A stretch of 7,754 nucleotides of DNA from Candidatus Altarchaeales archaeon WOR_SM1_86-2. Its GTDB lineage: Archaea > Altiarchaeota > Altiarchaeia > IMC4 > MCBC01. A model generated the notes under the pieces. That model was given only the letters and a program-made list of their open reading frames with translations. It made no database searches and was not told the DNA's origin. The stretch is from positions 1 through 7,754 of the forward strand of contig MCBC01000066.1 of the NCBI GenBank assembly GCA_001723855.1, written 5' to 3'. Position numbers and translations under genes: made by a program. Below are positions 1 through 7,754 of the stretch, piece after piece (position 1 is the first letter of the stretch; each line of letters opens with the position of its first letter).

Positions 1-282
1 GTTGTCTGAAATTCCGTCCTGATTGGCTGTGTTTGTAACAGGAACAATGTTTGTAATTCCATCCGCATCAGGTGGCAGGTCGGCATCAAATTCATCGTTT
101 ATCATCATATTATTGCCCAGGAATGTTGAATGCGGTGCAAAATGACACGGTCCCAACGGGAGTTGACCATCCCAGACGGTGCTTGGATAGTGGGCAGGTA
201 CTCCTGCTTGTGCGCCCGGCGGGTAAGCTGTCATTTGTATGTTGCCCCAGTTGTTCAAACTGTCAGGAGCGTCTCCCAAATC
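1..282 (-). other. GEVED-like DLGDAPDS domain (cut by window edge)
   Basis: DLGDAPDSLNNWGNIQMTAY is followed by PAHYPSTVWDG, LGPCHFAPHSTFLGNN, EFDADLPPDADGITNIVPV and NQDGISDN. The order DxGDAPDS - f/yPT - G-P-x-H - LG - E-x-DAD-x-x-x-D-x-D-x-x-N-x - D-G matches a domain seen in large secreted bacterial and archaeal proteins, related to GEVED domains. Its role is unknown but it often accompanies DUF11 and SdrD-like surface modules. The rest, and the protein's C-terminus, lie beyond base 1. Confidence 0.8.
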
Positions 283-3200
283 CTGGTACTGGCTGTAAGT
301 ATAGTCAATTGAATTTGTATCTGTGTATTTTCCTACTACCGTCGAATCAGGTTCTGTAAAAACACATTCGCAGAGTTCGGGATTTGACTGGACACAGCAA
401 TACCCTTCTTCACAACCGCCTGAACAGGGGTACATTCCCGGCTCCCATCCGGGTTCGGGGGCAAACTGGCATGCACAATCCTCGGGACAGTTTGTTATAT
501 TTTCGGCTGGGTCGCAGATACCGTCACCGCAGTAACTGCCGCCGCAGTCCTCCAGCGCCCAGAAAGTATCTCTTATGCCATAATCCGCACCCTGGTCATA
601 GAAGAACATCTCGAGGCAGCCATCTGCATCTACATCAGCAATGCTTGGAGAAGTGTGAATATCACCGCAGGTCAGGAATCTATCAATCACAAAGCCATCC
701 GAACCTCTTAGTAAATAAAGATACCAGTCATTTGAGCCGATGTATATTTCAAGATCCTTATCACTACTTCCGTAGAAACCTGTACGCTTTATATCGTGCC
801 TGAAGAATGGCCAGTCCTTATCGTAATTTCCGATATCATCTCTATCTGCAAGTGATGGAGAGGAGTAGATTGCTCCGCCTGTAGGGGTTTGCCAATTTTG
901 AGTCGCGGTATTTGCTGCCGGGACATAGTCAAAACTGTAAACATTGGTGTCTGTTGACCCTATTATCACTTCATAGTCGCCGTCAGCATCAACATCACCT
1001 ATGGCAGGCGAGGAATAGACGGCACCGCCTGTTACTGCAAACGTTACTTCAGAAGCATCTATGTTCCCATTGTCGTCTTCATCTCCGTTAATGAAATATA
1101 TATTACCGTCAGTTGAGCCGATTACAACTTCAAGATCGCCGTCGCCGTCAAAGTCAGCAAGTCCTGCAGAACCGTGGACGGCATATCCTGTCGGGTAGCT
1201 CCATTCAAAAGTTCCTGTCGCAGCATCCAGGCAATAAACATTACCGTCGCCTGATCCAAATACTACTTCTAAACTTCCGTCATTATCAACATCTCCAATT
1301 GCGGGTGTGGAAATTACACTACCCTCTGTATAGAAGACCCACAGAACATCCCAGTCCATACCTTCTGTTCCTACAGGTCCCGGGTAACCCCATGAGGATA
1401 TGTCAACAGTTATTCCATCATCAATTCCATCCGAATTATCACCGTCAAATGCCCAGAGACTATTTTCCGGGTTGTTCCCGATTATAATTTCCGGGCCATT
1501 CAATGAAGGCGGTGCTTGCTCATCGCACACGCATACGCCGGGGTAATCTGGCGGATCGTAACCCGAACAGTAATTGGGCATTCCTCCGCAGTATTCATCA
1601 CCCATGCATTCGGCATCATCCACACAAACAGGATGCACATCTGCTACCGCCGGGGATGAATGCCACATAAACGGACCGTTTTGCTGCGGTGGGAACGGAA
1701 ATGTCCATTCAAAACTTCCGTCTTGTGAATTCATTACTTCAACACACCAACCTGATGTTGTTCCCCCTGCTATATCAAGAGATTCGTCACCGTCAATATA
1801 TGTGATGGCGGGGGAACTTCTGGCTTCGTCTGTTTGCGTATCCACCGCCCATTCAACATTTCCTTGAGAATCAAAGGTACGCCAGATACCAAGGGTGTAT
1901 ATTCCAAGGTCCGGATGATAGTTATGGTACTCATCGCTTCCCGTTACAATTTCAAGGTCCGAATCAGGTTCTTCACCGGCATTATTAACACCTAAATCTG
2001 CAATTCCGGGAGATGAACCGAATATCATTCTTGTCGGGTTTGCCATAACATACTCCCACTGCTCTGTTAATATTCCATTATCACTGACTCCGTTGCCGCA
2101 AACTCCGCAATCTTGCGGGCAGTTTGATTCATTTTCATTTGCATCGCAATAACCGTCGCCGCATGTGCTGCAATCTTCGGGACAGTTTTCCGGATTTTCA
2201 TAAGGATAAATGCAGTAATCATCGCCGCAGTCACATACATCACCTTCTCCGTCGACATCGGTATCCTCCTGGTCAGGGTTATATTCTTCGGGGCAGTTAT
2301 CACATTCATCTCCTATGCCATCCTCATCAGTATCATTCTGTTCCGGGTTATATTCTTCGGGGCAGTTATCACATTCATCTCCTATGCCATCATCATCGGT
2401 ATCCTCCTGGTCAGGGTTATATTCTTCGGGGCAGTTATCACATGCGTCTCCTACACCATCAGCCTCGTAAATCCAGATGTCTGTAATTGCCGCATTATCT
2501 GGACTTGTGCTACCATCAATACTTAAAATTACATTTCCGTCTGCGTAGGATGCCGGCGGTATTTGGACAGGTCCGACAATATCCGCATTTGTGTAATCAA
2601 AGACAAGAATGCCGTCTGCCACCATATTATGTGTCCTGCCCAGAGTATTATCAAGGTCAACTTCAACAAAATAGTTCTTTGCAGGATCAAGGTTGTATTG
2701 GAACTCTAATGTGAAGAAGTGATAACACTGCCATCCGTCAAATATGCTGCCTTGAATCATGTGGGGTGCTGTTGCAGTACTTGCACAATAATCGTAGTAA
2801 ACGACACCGTCGGTATCATTCTGATCAGGGTTATATTCTTCGGGGCAGTTATCACATGCATCTCCTGCACCGTCACCGTCGGTATCATTCTGATCAGGGT
2901 TATATTCTTCGGGGCAGTTATCACATGCATCTCCTGCACCATCATCATCCGTGTCCTCCTGCTCAGGATTATATTCATCAGGGCAGTTATCACATGCATC
3001 TCCTGCACCATCATCATCCGTGTCCTCCTGCTCAGGATTATATTCATCAGGGCAATTATCACATGCATCCCCCAAGCCATCCTCATCAATATCTTCCTGC
3101 TCAGGATTAAATACTTCAGGGCAATTATCGTACATGTTAGGTATGCCGTCCATATCCAGATCGCAATCTACAGGACAATTTTGTGGACTTTCCCATGCTT

Positions 3201-6200
3201 CCGGCTGGCATTCGCCGTCCCCGCAGTAGCCGCCGGTACACGGATAATCCTCATACTCCGAACCAAATGCCCTTGCAAATTTGAAGAAATCATAATTGTT
3301 TATTTCGCCGTTGTCATTAAAGTCGCCGAGTGAATCATAATTGGAGTCATTTGCGAATACATATTCAAATCCAAGATATGAATACCACCAGTCATACATA
3401 TCTATGTCCCCGTCACAATAACCATACTTCAGCATCGGGTAAAGGTCTCCTTTCATGCAGGGAGTTACTATTACCTGCGCATCTATAATTGATACCGGGG
3501 ACATGGGATTTGCATCATCTCTTAAAATTTCCGGTGTAGTGTGTGTGCCTATAAGGTCAAGTACGGTCATTCCAATATCGTCGGCATATAAGTCAATATG
3601 GGTGACATATCCTGTCCCCGACTCGGTTTCGGAATCCAGCAATGAAAGTGCATATTTAAGATAACAACCCCCGGAATCCATTTCATTACCTGGCGATAAG
3701 AAGTAGGGGTAACCCCAGAAGAATGAACCATCCGAATAATTTAAGGTCATTAATACATCAGGATCACACATCATTTCATAATCAATTCCCGCAATATCAC
3801 TTCCTTTTACTTTAACATCCGCAGTAAAATCCTGTCCTATATAAACACATTCCGGGGCAATAATTTCCACTTTCGGACCTGCTATCTCTGTTATGAAATA
3901 GGTGCTGCCGTGTGGACAGCCAGTATCGCTCTCGCCGCAGTTCCAGGTATAATTTACAGTGTTATTAAGAAGCATTCCTGTCTCTGCCTCTTCGCTTACC
4001 TGAAGCACTAAAGTTATTTCTTCAATTTCATCTAAATCCTCTAAATACCAGCATGCTGCCGTACTTGGATTGTACGGCTCAGGCGCTGTTGGTAAATCTG
4101 CACAGGTACCGTTTTCGTCGCATAAAACATCAGGTTCCGGCTCGGCATCCACATAGATTGTCCCTTCCGGAAACTCGTCGCATATCATTGCATTGTAAGC
4201 GCCGACATTTTTGACTTTTAGAGCGTATTCAATTATTTCACCGGGGTATGCTTCTTCAGGTCCTTTTTTATTAACAACAATATAAGGGGTTATCACATCC
4301 GTAAACCGGTGGATGTCCCGCATAAAAGTAAAATTATAAGGTTTGATCCCGGAATCACATGTCCACGAAACCTCTGCCATGTTGTCAATTTCACCTATTA
4401 CCGGCTGCTCAACAGCAACCGATATATGCTCTACTAAAAGATCAAGAATTTCAGGTATATCTCCCGGGTCGCATTCATCGGAGAAAGCATAATATTGCCC
4501 GCCTGTTTCTTGTGCCATTCTTTTAAGTTCATCAATCCAGAATTGATCAATATAAACCCCGTAACCCTCTTCAGCCACAATAGGATATATTGCAACTCCT
4601 TCTGACCGGGCTTTTGCAATAACAGAATCTACCGTTGAAAAGTCATCTAAATCGGGATCAAAACCATAAGTATCTGTCATCATAATCATTGCTCTAACGC
4701 CATCCTCTCTCCAGGGCACATTATCAAGCATCCAGTTCATTGCCGCAAGGTAGGATGCACCGCCGCATCCACCCCATTCCCATATATTTTCCATCCAATC
4801 CTTAAATTCTGCCGGGTCGGTTGTTGTACCATCATAATGCCATTCACTCCAATAAGGATCATAATCCCAGCACCCAAACTCTCCTGAACTTAGTTGATAG
4901 TCAATTTCCATTGAATCAAGTTCATCTGCAAAGTCCATTACTGAATCCGCCATTGGAGCAATTCGGCATTCCATACTCCCGGTGGTATCCAGAACAAATG
5001 CAAAGTCCGCCTGTGATGTTTCCTCCGTTATAGTTTCTATTTCCACATCACCCTTGAAATCCTCACTTACCTTGACAGTTACCTCAACATACCTGTCACA
5101 TTCGGATATCCAGTAACAACCCCATGGGTCGCAATACCAACCTGTTTTATTCATATCAACCATTGCTTCTTCGTCAGAGGCGTATACTTTGTTTCCGGTT
5201 CTGCGAGTAGGATCATACCAATAATAATCCCCGTAGCACGAATCCAATGTATCAATATACCAGCACAACTTCTTTCCGTCATCCGATATTGTTGTAGGCC
5301 ACGGATCGGCATCTACGAAAGTTACATTATCGTCCAACCTGTCGCATATCCACCCGTTATAAACCGTCTCAAACGCGGTATTCCATGCATAAATCTCGTA
5401 AGTCATCTCTTCTCCGGGATATATTTCACGCTCGCCCCACTTCTCAATTGCCATGCCGCAGGAGTCCGCTATTTTAATTAATAAATTTGTATTTTCTTCA
5501 CACGCGGGTTGATACAGCGGTTCATTATCATAAGTGGGTTCACAATTCCATGTTACCTGCGCGGTGTTATTGAGCCACATGTACTTGGTCATCCATATAC
5601 TCACTTCAACGGTTATCATTATTTCCCTGGTTTCTCCCGCATCCATTACATCATCATACCAGCATACTGTGTTGCTGTAATCGTCATACCAGTCCCAATA
5701 GATTGGAGGTGCGATGGTTTCTTCCGGGTCGGATTCAAGGAAGTACACATCCAAAGGCAGATGGTCGCACACCCAGACATTATAAACCGGCTCATCGCCG
5801 TTGTTTTTTATGGTTAATTTATAATTAATTATTTCACCGGGGTACGCTTTATCTGGTTTTGGATTTGAATAGTACAGCCCGTTTTCCTTTTCAATTGTCA
5901 CTCTTGAGGAATTTTCTTCATCAATATATCTACAATCATCATCGCAAATTACAGGTTCCTGAATTTCCTCAACGGGACAGCTTGTATCATTTGTATTTAC
6001 AGATTCATTTGCATCCACTTTCCCGTATCCGTACCATCCGTCTCTCCCCGGGAATCCCAAATCATCTGCCGTTCTCCGGATAATGCATCTGACATCCTCA
6101 TTGCTGAACTCAGGGTGCTGTGAAAGTATAAGTGCCGCAACACCTGCAACATGCGGAGCCGCCATTGATGTGCCTGACATGGGCGTGTAACCAAGCGGGC

Positions 6201-7273
6201 TGCATGGTTCGTTATACGGGTCATAATAAGTTGTTTCATTATTGTTTGTTTCATTGTTTTCCGTATCATTATCCTCATCGCAAAAAGGAAAGGTGGATAG
6301 TATATTAACTCCCGGTGCCGCAACTTCTATTTCCGCACCCACGCTGCTGAAATAAGCCAATTCATCGTTCTTATCCACTGCTGAAACCGCCATTACTTCA
6401 TCATACCTTGCAGGATACGAAATCGGTCCGTAATTTCCCGCGGCGGCGGCAATGAAAACACCGCTCTCGTGAGCATATTTTACAGCATCCTCCAGCATAT
6501 AATCATTGTAAGATCCGCCCCAGCTGATACTTATAACATCCGCACCGGCGACCGTGGCATGAATTATTCCCATGGCACAGTCCCACGACCACCCATAACC
6601 TTCATAATCAAGAACTTTTACACCCATAACTTTTACCTGTGCAATTCCCGCTATTCCTACCCCGTTATTTGTCTCAGCCGCTGCAATACCTGCACAGTGA
6701 GTTCCGTGCCCGTTGTCATCCATCGGGTCGGAATCATCATTTACAAAATCATATCCTGAAGGTAAGTAATTATTTGCCAGATCTTCATGCGTGTAATCAA
6801 TGCCTGTATCCACTATCGCTATTATAATAGCGTCGCTTCCGTTTATCGTATCCCATGCACCTTCCGCTTTAATATTTTTTGGGCCGTATTGAAGTTTATA
6901 CTTGGGATCGTTTGGTATCATAACCGCTTTAACCATGTGGTTTAGTACGGCATATTTTATTGCAGGGTCGTCTTTTATTGCATTTATAAATTCTTCCTCA
7001 TCCCCAACATTAACCTTAACAAGCATGGAATTCAATAAATTACTTGTACCGGTAACCTGCCCGCCATTGCCGGTTATTACCGCGTTTACATCAGCAAGCA
7101 GTATCCCCTGCTCCGTCTCCCGCGGCACAGACGACGCTGATGCCTCCTGAAAATAAAATAAGAAGCATCATTATAATAAAGCTGCTCAATAAATTATAAA
7201 TTTTATAAGTTTTTTTAATATTCGTATCAAAATTGTTATTAAAAACCCCGTTTATATTATTTTTTTCTTTCAT
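1..7273 (-). CDS. Giant secreted mosaic protein: subtilisin-like S8 protease with VWA, DUF11, cohesin, dockerin, TSP3 and beta-propeller domains (3' end outside window; one frame change)
   Basis: Translating the minus strand gives a stop-free frame from 7167 to base 1, with codons ending cleanly on base 1. It therefore continues beyond the window. Known families recognised in order are the I9 prodomain, S8 peptidase (D155, H189, N280, S369), DUF11 repeats, VWA, cohesin, dockerin, TSP3, FG-GAP-like propeller and a DLGDAPDS domain. The likely role is an exported, calcium-stabilised surface protease that also binds proteins or glycans. Substrate and partners are unknown. The start is placed at the ATG at 7273 because it opens a convincing signal peptide. 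That peptide lies one frame away from the protease, so the gene as written needs a +1 shift between 7167 and 7094. No start in the protease frame provides an export signal. Many Cys residues and N-x-S/T sites fit an extracellular location. The protease and reading frame are near certain; overall function is inferred. Confidence 0.93.
283..548 (-). other. Cys-rich CGDGxC module 4 and linker
   Basis: CGGSYCGDGICDPAENITNC leads to PEDCACQF, then a further Cys cluster (PCSGGCEEGYCCVQSNPELC, then EC). This is followed by a Tyr/Thr-rich linker ending SIDYTYSQYQ. The first part is a full copy of the CGDGxC...NCPxDC module; the second is a different small disulfide unit. The stretch connects the propeller to the DLGDAPDS domain. 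Confidence 0.75.
763..816 (-). other. DWPFFRHDIKRTGFYG motif inside the seventh propeller blade
   Basis: KDWPFFRHDIKRTGFYG lies between SSPSLADRDD and KDLEIYIGSNDWYLYLL. The W-P-x-F-R-H-D-x-x-x-T-G-x-Y pattern is a known short motif of FG-GAP/PQQ-type secreted proteins, usually seen beside rather than within blades. Here it adds about 30 residues in the position of the calcium loop, so this blade probably lacks that loop. Confidence 0.6.
1500..1638 (-). other. Cys-rich insert within the third propeller blade
   Basis: After SSPAVADV the blade is interrupted by HPVCVDDAECMGDEYCGG, then six residues later by C-SGYDPPDYPGVCVCDE, before the blade resumes as GPEIIIGNNPENSLWAFDG. Six Cys in about 35 residues suggest a small disulfide knot. 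The spacing CxxDxxCxxxxYC loosely recalls small secreted Cys-knot modules, but no family is certain. It would stick out from the propeller rim. Confidence 0.7.
2112..2232 (-). other. Cys-rich CGDGxC...NCPxDC modules 2 and 3, in tandem
   Basis: Module 2 is CGDDYCIYPYENPENCPEDC and module 3 is CGDGYCDANENESNCPQDC. They are joined by ST and followed by GVCGNGVSDNG. They share their final Cys pattern with modules 1 and 4. They link the calcium stalk to the beta-propeller and probably form two small disulfide-locked beads. Confidence 0.8.
2233..2460 (-). repeat. TSP3 calcium-binding repeats, second block (about three units plus a terminal half)
   Basis: The array continues after the insert as DGVGDACDNCPEEYNPDQED, then two DECDNC units, and ends TDVDGEGDVCDC, which runs into the Cys modules. 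The 69-bp period and the codon spelling (AAC TGC CCC GAA GAA TAT AAC) are the same as in units 4-5 before the insert. The insert therefore interrupted one pre-existing repeat family. Across both blocks there are about eight full units, one of them split. Confidence 0.95.
2461..2805 (-). other. About 115-residue beta-rich domain inserted inside a TSP3 repeat
   Basis: The array stops at NDTDG, then VVYYDYCASTATAPHMIQGS begins a segment that ends ITDIWIYEA. After this DGVGDACDNCPEEY resumes the interrupted unit. The 345-bp insert keeps the frame. Alternating strands (HFFTLEFQYNL, NYFVEVDLDN, DGILVFDY, GNVILSIDG, ITDIWIYE) suggest a jelly-roll or carbohydrate-binding-module-like sandwich with one Cys pair. 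I cannot name the family with confidence. Its job may be ligand or glycan binding, displayed from a stiff calcium stalk. Confidence 0.7.
2806..3162 (-). repeat. Thrombospondin type 3 (TSP3) calcium-binding repeats, first block (about five units, 69-bp period)
   Basis: The units read D-x-D-x-D-G-x-G-D-A-C-D-N-C-P-x-x-Y-N-P-x-Q-x-D, 23 residues (69 bp) each. Five occur here, starting at LDMDGIPNMYDNCPE and ending in NDTDG, where the array is broken. Each binds calcium through the Asp-rich run and is locked by a Cys pair. At DNA level 2811-2871 is identical to 2880-2940 over 61 bases, so these copies arose recently or are kept alike. Units 2-3 spell the motif CCT GAT GAA TAT AAT CCT; unit 4 onward spells it CCC GAA GAA TAT AAC CC. 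These are two sub-families. Confidence 0.95.
3163..3240 (-). other. Cys-rich CGDGxC...NCPxDC module 1
   Basis: CTGGYCGDGECQPEAWESPQ is followed by NCPVDC. This is a small disulfide-rich unit of the CGDGxC-(x)n-ENxxNCPxDC type. The same unit recurs three more times in the protein, always at the border between larger domains. The function is probably that of a rigid spacer. This type of module is common in very large secreted proteins of uncultured archaea and some bacteria. Confidence 0.8.
3253..3450 (-). other. Dockerin-like duplicated calcium-loop domain
   Basis: Two dockerin half-repeats are visible. The first is YCDGDIDMYDWWYSYLGFEY; the second is GDFNDNGEINNYDFFKFARA, followed by FGSEY. 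Each carries an Asp/Asn-rich EF-hand-like loop followed by a helix, as in type I dockerins (G-D-x-N-x-D-G-x-I-x-x-x-D). The first loop is shortened (CDGDIDMYD), so its calcium binding may be weaker. It lies directly after the cohesin-like domain. It could bind that domain in the same or a neighbouring molecule; this is inference only. Confidence 0.8.
3457..3879 (-). other. Cohesin-like domain
   Basis: Residues about 1132-1273 run from GPKVEIIAPECVYIGQDFTA through DVKVKGSDIAGIDYEMMCDP, YSDGSFFWG and HIDLYADDIGMTVLDL to SIIDAQVIVTPC. This follows the cohesin pattern: 'v-x-G-x-x-f-x-v-x-V' strand, 'y-x-x-x-y-D-P' strand, an eG-x-f-f turn, an 'i-x-l-x-A' strand and a closing v-x-v strand. Cohesins bind dockerins, and in archaea they often sit in large secreted proteins unrelated to cellulosomes. 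A dockerin-like segment follows immediately. Confidence 0.75.
3930..4290 (-). other. DUF11-like beta-sandwich 3
   Basis: It starts TPYIVVNKKGPEEAYPGEII and continues EYALKVKNVGAYNAMICDEF. It then has CWYLEDLDEIEEITLVLQV and closes LLNNTVNYTWNCGESD. The motif order and Cys positions match copy 1, including ICD and CWY. This copy is uninterrupted and serves as the reference for recognising the split in copy 2. Confidence 0.8.
4348..5499 (-). other. DUF11-like beta-sandwich 2, split by a VWA domain
   Basis: The first part (5499-5014) has IYPGEEMTYEIYAWNT, GWICDRL, FVDADP and LCWYIDTLD. After an aromatic, Cys-rich loop comes the strand RYVEVTVKVSEDF. In copies 1 and 3 that strand runs on to the closing motif LNNT-x-x-x-TWNC. 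Here the closing motif (EIDNMAEVSWTCDSG, 4392-4348) appears only after the whole VWA domain. The VWA domain therefore seems to be inserted in the last loop of this sandwich, rather than placed between two complete domains. Confidence 0.7.
4426..5013 (-). other. von Willebrand factor A (VWA) domain with MIDAS-type metal site
   Basis: ADFAFVLDTTGSMECRIAPM starts the domain, with the metal-ion motif DxTGS at 4989 downward (residues 762-766). AMIMMTDTYGFDP supplies the later MIDAS Asp, and GVAIYPIVAEEGYGVYID with LKRMAQETGGQYYAF is the usual last third of the fold. The middle helix region has GGCGGASYLAAMNWML in place of the common GGDGPE motif, so the MIDAS Thr is not obvious. VWA domains bind protein ligands through a bound divalent metal. 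Here it is held out from a DUF11 sandwich next to the protease, and its ligand is unknown. Confidence 0.9.
5536..5904 (-). other. DUF11-like beta-sandwich 1
   Basis: The stretch begins RVTIEKENG and includes AYPGEIINYKLTIKNNGDEP, VWVCDHLP and CWYDD. It ends LNNTAQVTWNCEP. This is the DUF11 or conserved-repeat pattern: proline-glycine turn, 'x-y-x-v-x-N-x-G', 'v-x-D-x-l-P', and a final 'x-N-x-a-x-V' strand. Such domains are passive stalk or adhesion modules of surface proteins. Extra Cys pairs unique to this protein recur at the same places in the other two copies. Confidence 0.8.
6020..6905 (-). other. Subtilisin-like serine protease catalytic domain (peptidase family S8)
   Basis: All S8 signatures are present in order. 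IIIAIVDTGIDYTHEDL carries the catalytic Asp (codon 6810-6808, D155). DDNGHGTHCAGIAAA carries the catalytic His (6708-6706, H189). The oxyanion Asn is in AAAAGNYGP (6435-6433, N280). GTSMAAPHVAGVAAL carries the nucleophile Ser (6168-6166, S369). The domain should be an active endopeptidase outside the cell. A Cys-bounded acidic loop of 27 residues (6282-6202) sits just before the Ser motif. It holds three N-x-T sequons (NDT, NET, NET) and is not a standard part of the fold. The domain ends around WYGYGKVDANESV, the usual last helix of subtilases. Confidence 0.97.
6940..7107 (-). other. I9-type inhibitor prodomain of the subtilase
   Basis: Residues about 57-112 read GILLADVNAVITGNGGQV, then LLNSMLVKVNVGDEEEF, then DDPAIKYAVLN. 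This is the usual subtilase propeptide layout: a strand, a helix ending at GG-x-V, a central strand, a helix, and a final dp.vkyve.n motif. Such prodomains assist folding and inhibit the enzyme until they are cleaved off. Its presence just after the signal peptide supports joining the two frames. The first strand is short and sits at the frame break, so its N-terminal limit is uncertain. Confidence 0.75.
7105..7108 (-). other. Likely frame-change site: G4 run between signal peptide and prodomain
   Basis: Both frames are open only between 7167 and 7094, so the change must lie there. The coding strand has a run of four G at 7108-7105. Removing one G joins the two frames as ...CAAGDGAGILLADVNAV, which leads straight into the prodomain. 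This makes a one-base insertion, in the cell or in the read, the simplest account. An AGGAGG sequence at 7148-7143 in the coding strand could pause ribosomes, but there is no slow stop codon next to it as in the prfB +1 shift. The exact position is inferred. Confidence 0.5.
7121..7273 (-). other. Sec-type signal peptide in frame +1 relative to the protease
   Basis: The ATG at 7273 opens a 60-codon frame that ends at TGA 7093-7091. It begins MKEKNN and carries a KK pair at residues 20-21. A hydrophobic stretch of about 20 residues (LLSSFIIMMLLILFSGG) follows, then ISVVCAA, which is a plausible signal peptidase cleavage site after residue 51. The Cys is preceded by Val-Val, so this is not a proper lipobox. 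On its own the 60-residue product would be a pointless exported stub. Its hydrophobic segment ends where the prodomain of the next frame begins, so I read it as the N-terminus of the large protease. No Shine-Dalgarno is visible; the bases before the ATG are TTAATTAAAA. Confidence 0.8.
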
Positions 7274-7358: not shown

Positions 7359-7754
7359 TTATGGGCAGTAATAAGTGCAACCTGTTGTGCCATTATCATT
7401 CCATCCGTCCGGCGTGCTGCATGTATTATCATCCCCGGAAGTCGTCAGCCAGTTACCTGAACCGAAGTCCAGCAGGGTGTTCCCGCAGACAATGTTTGAG
7501 TTTATTGTTGAATCCGAATCTTTTGAGTAAATCCCGTAATAATTATTTAAAATTACATTTTCCTGGAGAACATTGTCTGAGGAAAATTGCAGGTAAATTC
7601 CGTATAGGTTTGAACTGGCGGTATTACTGTTTATATCGTTATTGTTTGAAGAGCGGTCTAAAAGAATCCCTCGACCGTTTGAATTTACATTGTTGTTAAG
7701 TACATTATTATTGTTTGATGAATACCTCAGGGAAATTCCGTTAAAATTATTTGA
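7359..7754 (-). CDS. C-terminal part of a secreted right-handed parallel beta-helix (NosD/PbH1-type) protein, 5' end outside window
   Basis: The frame is open from the right edge to TAA at 7361-7359, giving 131 residues. It reads as repeated 20-25-residue coils: NFNGISLRYSSNNNNVLNNN, then GRGILLDRSSNNNDINSNTA, NLYGIYLQFSSDNVLQENVI and YYGIYSKDSDSTINSNIV. The G-I-x-L-x-x-S-x-x-N-x-I-x-x-N rhythm is that of parallel beta-helix repeats. In secreted proteins these form a long solenoid that binds or degrades polysaccharide, or acts as an adhesin. No catalytic residues can be assigned from this fragment. After the last coil comes a Cys-containing tail, CGNTLLDFGSGNWL, then SGDDTCSTPDGWNDNGTTGC and TYYCP. 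It probably caps the solenoid through disulfides. It lies 85 bp upstream of the protease gene on the same strand, and both products are extracellular. Confidence 0.85.
   Translation of the reverse strand, partial: SNNFNGISLRYSSNNNNVLNNNVNSNGRGILLDRSSNNNDINSNTASSNLYGIYLQFSSDNVLQENVILNNYYGIYSKDSDSTINSNIVCGNTLLDFGSGNWLTTSGDDNTCSTPDGWNDNGTTGCTYYCP

Follow-up and report, generated by a model that had tools for sequence, protein, structure and literature searches.

The window, i.e., the whole stretch of 7,754 nucleotides of archaeal DNA analysed here, carries one giant minus-strand frame in which an S8 protease is joined to adhesion-type modules and in which a VWA domain is nested within the second of three DUF11 copies, between a Lys and an Asn that might form an isopeptide bond. 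The single frame of the preliminary description is real (2376 codons, 7128 to 1), and its joining of a protease to adhesion-type modules in one protein is well supported. The VWA nesting, the Lys-Asp-Asn triads of the DUF11 copies, slots of variable content and a frame break go beyond that earlier reading. Coordinates are collected in Table 1.

Table 1. Features of the window; residues are counted along the main open frame
Feature	Positions	Strand	Residues	Remarks
Main open frame	1..7128	minus		2376 codons from GTG 7128; open at window end
60-codon ATG frame with signal-peptide-like stretch	7091..7273	minus		differs from protease frame
Remaining protease prodomain	6889..7113	minus	6-80	alignment to P0001/P0002
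S8 protease	5971..6888	minus	81-386	Pfam profile and alignment
DUF11 copy 1	5464..5904	minus	409-555	best-matching stretch 426-527
DUF11 copy 2, part before VWA	5017..5463	minus	556-704	Lys563, Asp596
VWA nested in DUF11 copy 2	4411..5016	minus	705-906	Asp714, Thr716, Ser718, Asp819
DUF11 copy 2, part after VWA	4291..4410	minus	907-946	Asn916
DUF11 copy 3	3877..4290	minus	947-1084	Lys954, Asp984, Asn1056
Cohesin-like segment	3460..3876	minus	1085-1223	weak
Dockerin-like segment	3238..3459	minus	1224-1297	weak
Cys module 1	3163..3225	minus	1302-1322	
TSP3 array before insert	2806..3150	minus		last unit split mid-way
115-residue domain inside TSP3 unit	2461..2805	minus	1442-1556	
TSP3 array after insert	2236..2460	minus		
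Cys modules 2 and 3	2107..2229	minus	1634-1653, 1656-1674	
Beta-propeller, FG-GAP/BamB type	559..2085	minus		limits approximate
Cys-rich insert inside propeller	1513..1632	minus		about 40 residues; limits approximate
Cys module 4	475..531	minus	2200-2218	
DLGDAPDS segment	1..291	minus		cut by window end

With regard to profile evidence, the S8 match reaches 210 bits against a cut-off of 21.8, and the Asp, His, Asn and Ser motifs, which we take to be the catalytic motifs of this protease, are present. Copy 1 of DUF11 passes its Pfam cut-off; copies 2 and 3 taken alone fall below it. The TSP3 repeats (PF02412) and the FG-GAP/BamB propeller match their profiles, the latter also with a propeller fold, and the VWA segment has a VWA fold. 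The DLGDAPDS segment gave no Pfam match as a cut piece at E≤10; it is 82% identical to the relative P0001 over 177 residues, counted from the Cys module on. Of six pieces compared with NCBIfam at E≤1, two were matched (VWA, neighbour gene), and nothing was obtained for the other four (cohesin-like, dockerin-like, TSP3 insert, DLGDAPDS). That is, of the proposed domain set the S8 protease, three DUF11 copies, VWA, TSP3, four Cys modules, propeller and DLGDAPDS segment stand, while the dockerin is weak and the cohesin weaker. Among the families named for the profile search, S8, DUF11, TSP3 and the FG-GAP propeller were matched; for cohesin (PF00963) and dockerin (PF00404), Pfam was silent on the cut pieces at E≤10.

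A search with the whole frame retained 1511 of 7986 scored candidates at E≤0.001, and the great majority of the 120 matches listed are to TSP3, covering about 13% of the query. The search with the core alone (residues 400-1310) is passed by 4 of 3906 candidates. Only P0001 and P0002 span most of this core (70% and 99% of it by best local alignment, compared to 24% and 23% for the other two); P0002 is labelled Candidatus Altarchaeum by its source, and by this one label the window protein probably belongs to that lineage or to a closely related archaeon. Narrow pattern scans of genome contigs returned 2 and 104 stretches, none of them relatives by tblastn, and a narrow scan of viral contigs returned one stretch that is not a relative, each being weak evidence of absence. 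The core found no match among plasmids.

Common to the window, P0001 and P0002 are the prodomain, the S8 protease and three DUF11 copies, the second of which contains a VWA, as well as both the cohesin-like and the dockerin-like segment, one Cys module and TSP3. Both relatives keep the window's domain order over the first 1,324 residues, which speaks against the earlier concern that the gene is a chimera of two genomes. Given an order common to three records, a chimeric core is not supported; the parts found only in the window rest on one assembly. Family members differ from each other at the joints of this shared core. A LamG domain separates S8 from DUF11 copy 1 in P0002, and DUF11 copy 3 of P0001 contains an insert of 218 residues. 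In the window, a TSP3 unit is split mid-way by an insert of 115 residues, and a propeller stands between Cys modules at a place where P0001 lacks one. C-terminal to its LamG, P0001 also has two stretches that by eye resemble papain/C39-type domains (residues ~2380-2560 and ~2780-2950; Cys followed by Gly-His); neither has a Pfam match at E≤0.01.

Without the VWA, DUF11 copy 2 can be aligned to copies 1 and 3. Since the last strands of the three copies correspond (LNNTAQVTWNC in copy 1, IDNMAEVSWTC in copy 2, LNNTVNYTWNC in copy 3), the VWA is nested within copy 2. Its excision raises the profile score of the window but little (from 47.6 to 48.0 bits), the first half of the copy being matched by the profile in any case. 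The P0001 insert in copy 3 sits just ahead of the strand that is equivalent to IDNMAEVSWTC of copy 2. A structure model of the core is poor (mean pLDDT 42); Foldseek returned a few VWA-type rows for it at an rmsd of 4-5 Å, and integrin/transglutaminase rows were set aside, their rmsd being mostly above 15 Å. Searching PDB sequences with the VWA piece gave four unrelated matches (E 0.68-0.7).

For the CLIPPER (DUF11) structure 9IFR, the accessible text of the source gives a Lys715-Asn806 bond with Asp748 as presumed helper (PMC12617251). We compared nine DUF11 rows, i.e., three copies each of the window, P0001 and P0002. The Asp and Asn columns are held in all nine and the Lys column in 7/9; the two exceptions for Lys are the first copies of the window and P0001, in which an invariant Lys414 lies eight residues earlier. 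The complete triad is present in 6/6 rows of copies 2 and 3, and the Lys-Asp spacing of copy 2 is the same as in 9IFR (33). A regular expression found no outside DUF11 copies, and a profile was used instead: among the 28 outside stretches collected with it, Asp is held in 27; the Asn column is reached by nine and held in all of these, and Lys is held in 2/4. Among the PDB matches listed, 9IFR itself occurs only once, at E 0.19 for a DUF11 of P0121.

These columns bear on a rival reading that is doubtful in our estimate, though a serious one, namely that of a secreted degradative subtilase whose long tail consists of commonplace spacer and binding modules. Here, the nesting would be real, disulfides would take the place of isopeptide bonds, and the VWA would have evolved faster in one lineage. 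The main frame holds 90 Cys, so many that disulfides may hold the DUF11 domains, and the Lys column is incomplete; the 38 private changes of the window VWA (see below) point the same way. On the other hand, the rival leaves the invariant Asp and Asn and the full set of Lys in copies 2 and 3 to be accounted for, the latter though Lys makes up 2.0% of the frame.

According to the accessible parts of the respective sources, RrgA, GBS104 and Mfa5 carry a VWA in a CnaA-type domain that is locked by a Lys-Asn isopeptide bond (PMC5333627, PMC7835359, PMC12617251). For RrgA, D3 is inserted in D2 with a Lys191-Asn695 bond and Asp600 (PMC5333627), and for Mfa5 the VWA lies between strands B and C with a Lys111-Asn518 bond (PMC7835359). 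The window VWA likewise lies inside a beta-sandwich of the CnaA-like group, with a Lys before it, an Asn after it and an Asp as putative helper, i.e., it is inserted between the putative bond Lys and Asn, a likeness of layout only. The entry point differs: the VWA of the three known proteins enters early, that of the window late, before the Asn-bearing strand, and we thus do not file the window protein in their group. It is also unlike them in its DUF11 scaffold, in the S8 protease at the chain start and in its bond being putative, and none of the three is among the 50 matches listed for the window VWA. The window protein may work as they do.

The profile match and the Asp/Asn columns are shared with CLIPPER (DUF11, PF01345) stalks. 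Unlike these, the window has a large domain between the bond residues, for which the accessible text of PMC12617251 offers no CLIPPER case. Likened by description, tetrabrachion also combines a protease with an archaeal surface stalk, but its protease STABLE is associated with the stalk's anchor, as far as the accessible text of PMC4460559 goes, whereas the window joins both in one chain. DUF11, VWA nesting in CnaA-type domains, TSP3 and S8 are already known singly. The literature covered, mostly open-access and at the level of listings and selected passages, yielded no account of this protein, no VWA inside a DUF11 domain and no archaeal instance of the VWA-in-isopeptide-domain layout.

The reading we prefer, with the chances for and against it about evenly balanced, is that of a modular exported protease-adhesin, i.e., a clamped stalk with display loops of exchangeable content, its bond being putative. 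From the comparisons above and below, we infer bond formation, export, adhesion, the load path and the exchange as follows. Three DUF11 (CLIPPER) beta-sandwiches would build up a stalk together with TSP3 spacers, Cys modules and the cohesin-like/dockerin-like pair, with the S8 protease close to the N-terminus. Further modules would hang at the stalk joints (in the window, the propeller and the 115-residue domain), and the VWA would be shown from a loop of DUF11 copy 2. As Lys563 precedes and Asn916 follows the VWA, an isopeptide bond would close the loop around it, and the closed loop would route mechanical load past the VWA as in RrgA, GBS104 and Mfa5. Loop content would be swapped among family members while the scaffold is retained, and the gene would encode an exported chain, or would have done so before the frame break.

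If the bond forms, an archaeon would present a VWA by the trick of streptococcal and Porphyromonas tip adhesins at another insertion point, which would argue for convergence. It would also offer a natural socket for the display of inserted domains and a clue to the attachment of uncultivated groundwater archaea. More tentatively, DUF11 might serve a family of archaeal surface proteases as a reusable isopeptide-locked socket, with different domains (a VWA and, in P0001, the one of 218 residues) placed before the Asn strand of different copies. Each would lie in a covalently closed loop away from the load path, and contents would be swapped while the socket stays, a generalization that is possible but that we would rather bet against. 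If it is true, the RrgA/Mfa5 layout would have been reached independently outside bacteria.

With regard to exchange, we counted private changes, i.e., gap-free sites at which one of the three sequences is unlike the other two. In the VWA, these number 38 for the window, 6 for P0001 and 14 for P0002. Summed over nine other pieces from the prodomain to Cys module 1 (omitting the linker after S8, TSP3 onward and the P0001 insert), the respective counts are 53, 57 and 219. The VWA thus differs from the rest for the window against P0001 (Fisher p 9.4e-6) as well as for all three (chi-square p 2e-15). The identity between window and P0001 is 64% for the VWA against 82.5% elsewhere, and that between P0001 and P0002 76% against 67%.

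We also compared blocks of 25 gap-free sites, again for three sequences with no outgroup. The window and P0001 are the closest pair in blocks 556-630 and again in 929-1046, and the three pairs are near equal in blocks 631-721. P0001 and P0002 are closest in blocks 722-826 and 879-903; between these, block 827-851 is near equal and 852-878 goes in the opposite direction, with the window and P0001 closest. Ties are found for block 904-928 (window-P0001 vs. P0001-P0002) and block 1052-1079 (window-P0001 vs. window-P0002). By the counts of private changes, the window VWA has diverged out of step with its flanks. The pattern fits a replacement of the VWA, and three sequences without an outgroup also allow a lineage-specific burst. 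Asp714, Thr716, Ser718 and Asp819, which we take to be the MIDAS metal-site residues, are conserved in all three VWAs. ESSLA and TDAPSHDPD of P0001/P0002 read ASYLA and TDTYGFDPD in the window; two loop residues common to the relatives are altered, and the metal site of the window VWA may be altered with them.

The N-terminus is where the claim of an intact S8 protease holds for one part only: profile and motifs are there, but the prodomain is broken and the signal peptide from ATG 7273 lies in another frame. The break is located where the 60-codon ATG frame (7273 to 7091) meets the main frame, so that no single frame of the window joins its S8 to an intact prodomain and signal peptide. P0001 can be read in a single frame from the signal peptide through the prodomain to the protease. 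Between the Gly-Gly that follows the signal core and the Glu-Gln-Gly of the prodomain, we count 28 bases in the window as against 17 codons in P0001, a difference not divisible by three. The prodomain family PF22148 is detected in P0001 and P0002, and a Pfam profile search of the window gave no match to it at E≤0.01. The break, seen in a single record, may be a real lesion or an assembly error, and the window copy may not be made as one exported chain.

Were the break real, the gene might be a decaying copy that is being lost, and the VWA changes would reflect relaxed constraint instead of exchange. A signal peptide and protease out of frame with each other and altered VWA loops would be expected of such a copy. 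We nevertheless consider decay improbable, given that outside the VWA private changes are no more numerous in the window than in P0001 (53 vs. 57 over the nine pieces) and that 2376 codons remain open.

The break could also be of technical origin, together with the TSP3 insert and the propeller, if reads of different genes had been joined at repeats. Both elements lie between repeats and are missing from P0001, and the narrow scans of genome and viral contigs left the joins without a second record. Relative to the core, the codon use of the propeller deviates at z -5.0, a value overstated like all those given here by a null from overlapping blocks. The insert fits (z -0.6), however, S8 itself is at -2.6, and the two TSP3 stretches deviate in the opposite direction (5.6 and 5.8). 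The halves of one TSP3 unit flank the insert on both sides in frame, the propeller is in frame as well, the core order is common to P0001 and P0002, and the VWA nesting, present in all three, would be untouched by such an error. We consider a partial assembly artefact very improbable.

The insert had no match at E≤1 among 173 candidates, and none among phages. At 2806-2940, the TSP3 unit before it contains an exact copy of the first 45 bases of its predecessor, a recent duplication adjoining the insert, to judge from the letters. The propeller (residues ~1686-2169) shares 43-60% identity with the propellers of seven proteins that are otherwise unalike, including one named Bacteroidetes and one named Chloroflexota, and seems to be a module that travels. 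Its Cys-rich insert is missing from 6/6 aligned propellers.

Protease, cohesin and dockerin in one chain had been called unusual, a view weakened by two precedents. P0104 (3223 aa, source name Chloroflexota bacterium) holds a C11 protease, FG-GAP repeats, cohesin and dockerin, all above the Pfam cut-offs, and its propeller is 48.8% identical to that of the window over 422 residues. Like the window, it thus joins a protease, an FG-GAP propeller and cohesin/dockerin modules (weak in the window) in one chain; unlike it, the protease is C11, not S8, and DUF11, VWA and TSP3 are absent among 25 of its 26 families. Archaeal (ANME) proteins, which according to the accessible text of PMC9012536 have a single dockerin and as many as five cohesins, also have both module types in one chain, whereas the window's pair is but weakly indicated. 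Its cohesin-like segment gives a weak pairwise signal, and a PDB profile built from the alignment of this segment has four matches, none a cohesin. For the dockerin-like segment, 9 of 14 PDB matches are of dockerin type, the best at a weak E of 0.05. Judged by these matches, the dockerin is a weak candidate and the cohesin, a weaker one, is not established.

Two minor observations concern the surroundings and the DUF11 profile. The end of an upstream gene of the same direction (7359-7754, minus strand), cut by the window edge, encodes a right-handed beta-helix of NosD type (PF05048, 53.2 bits). A profile of DUF11 copies 1/3 has its best PDB sequence match (E 7e-7) in GhpA, the grappling hook protein of Aureispira, a bacterium. 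Altiarchaeum bears hook-like hami, and the correspondence is possibly a coincidence.
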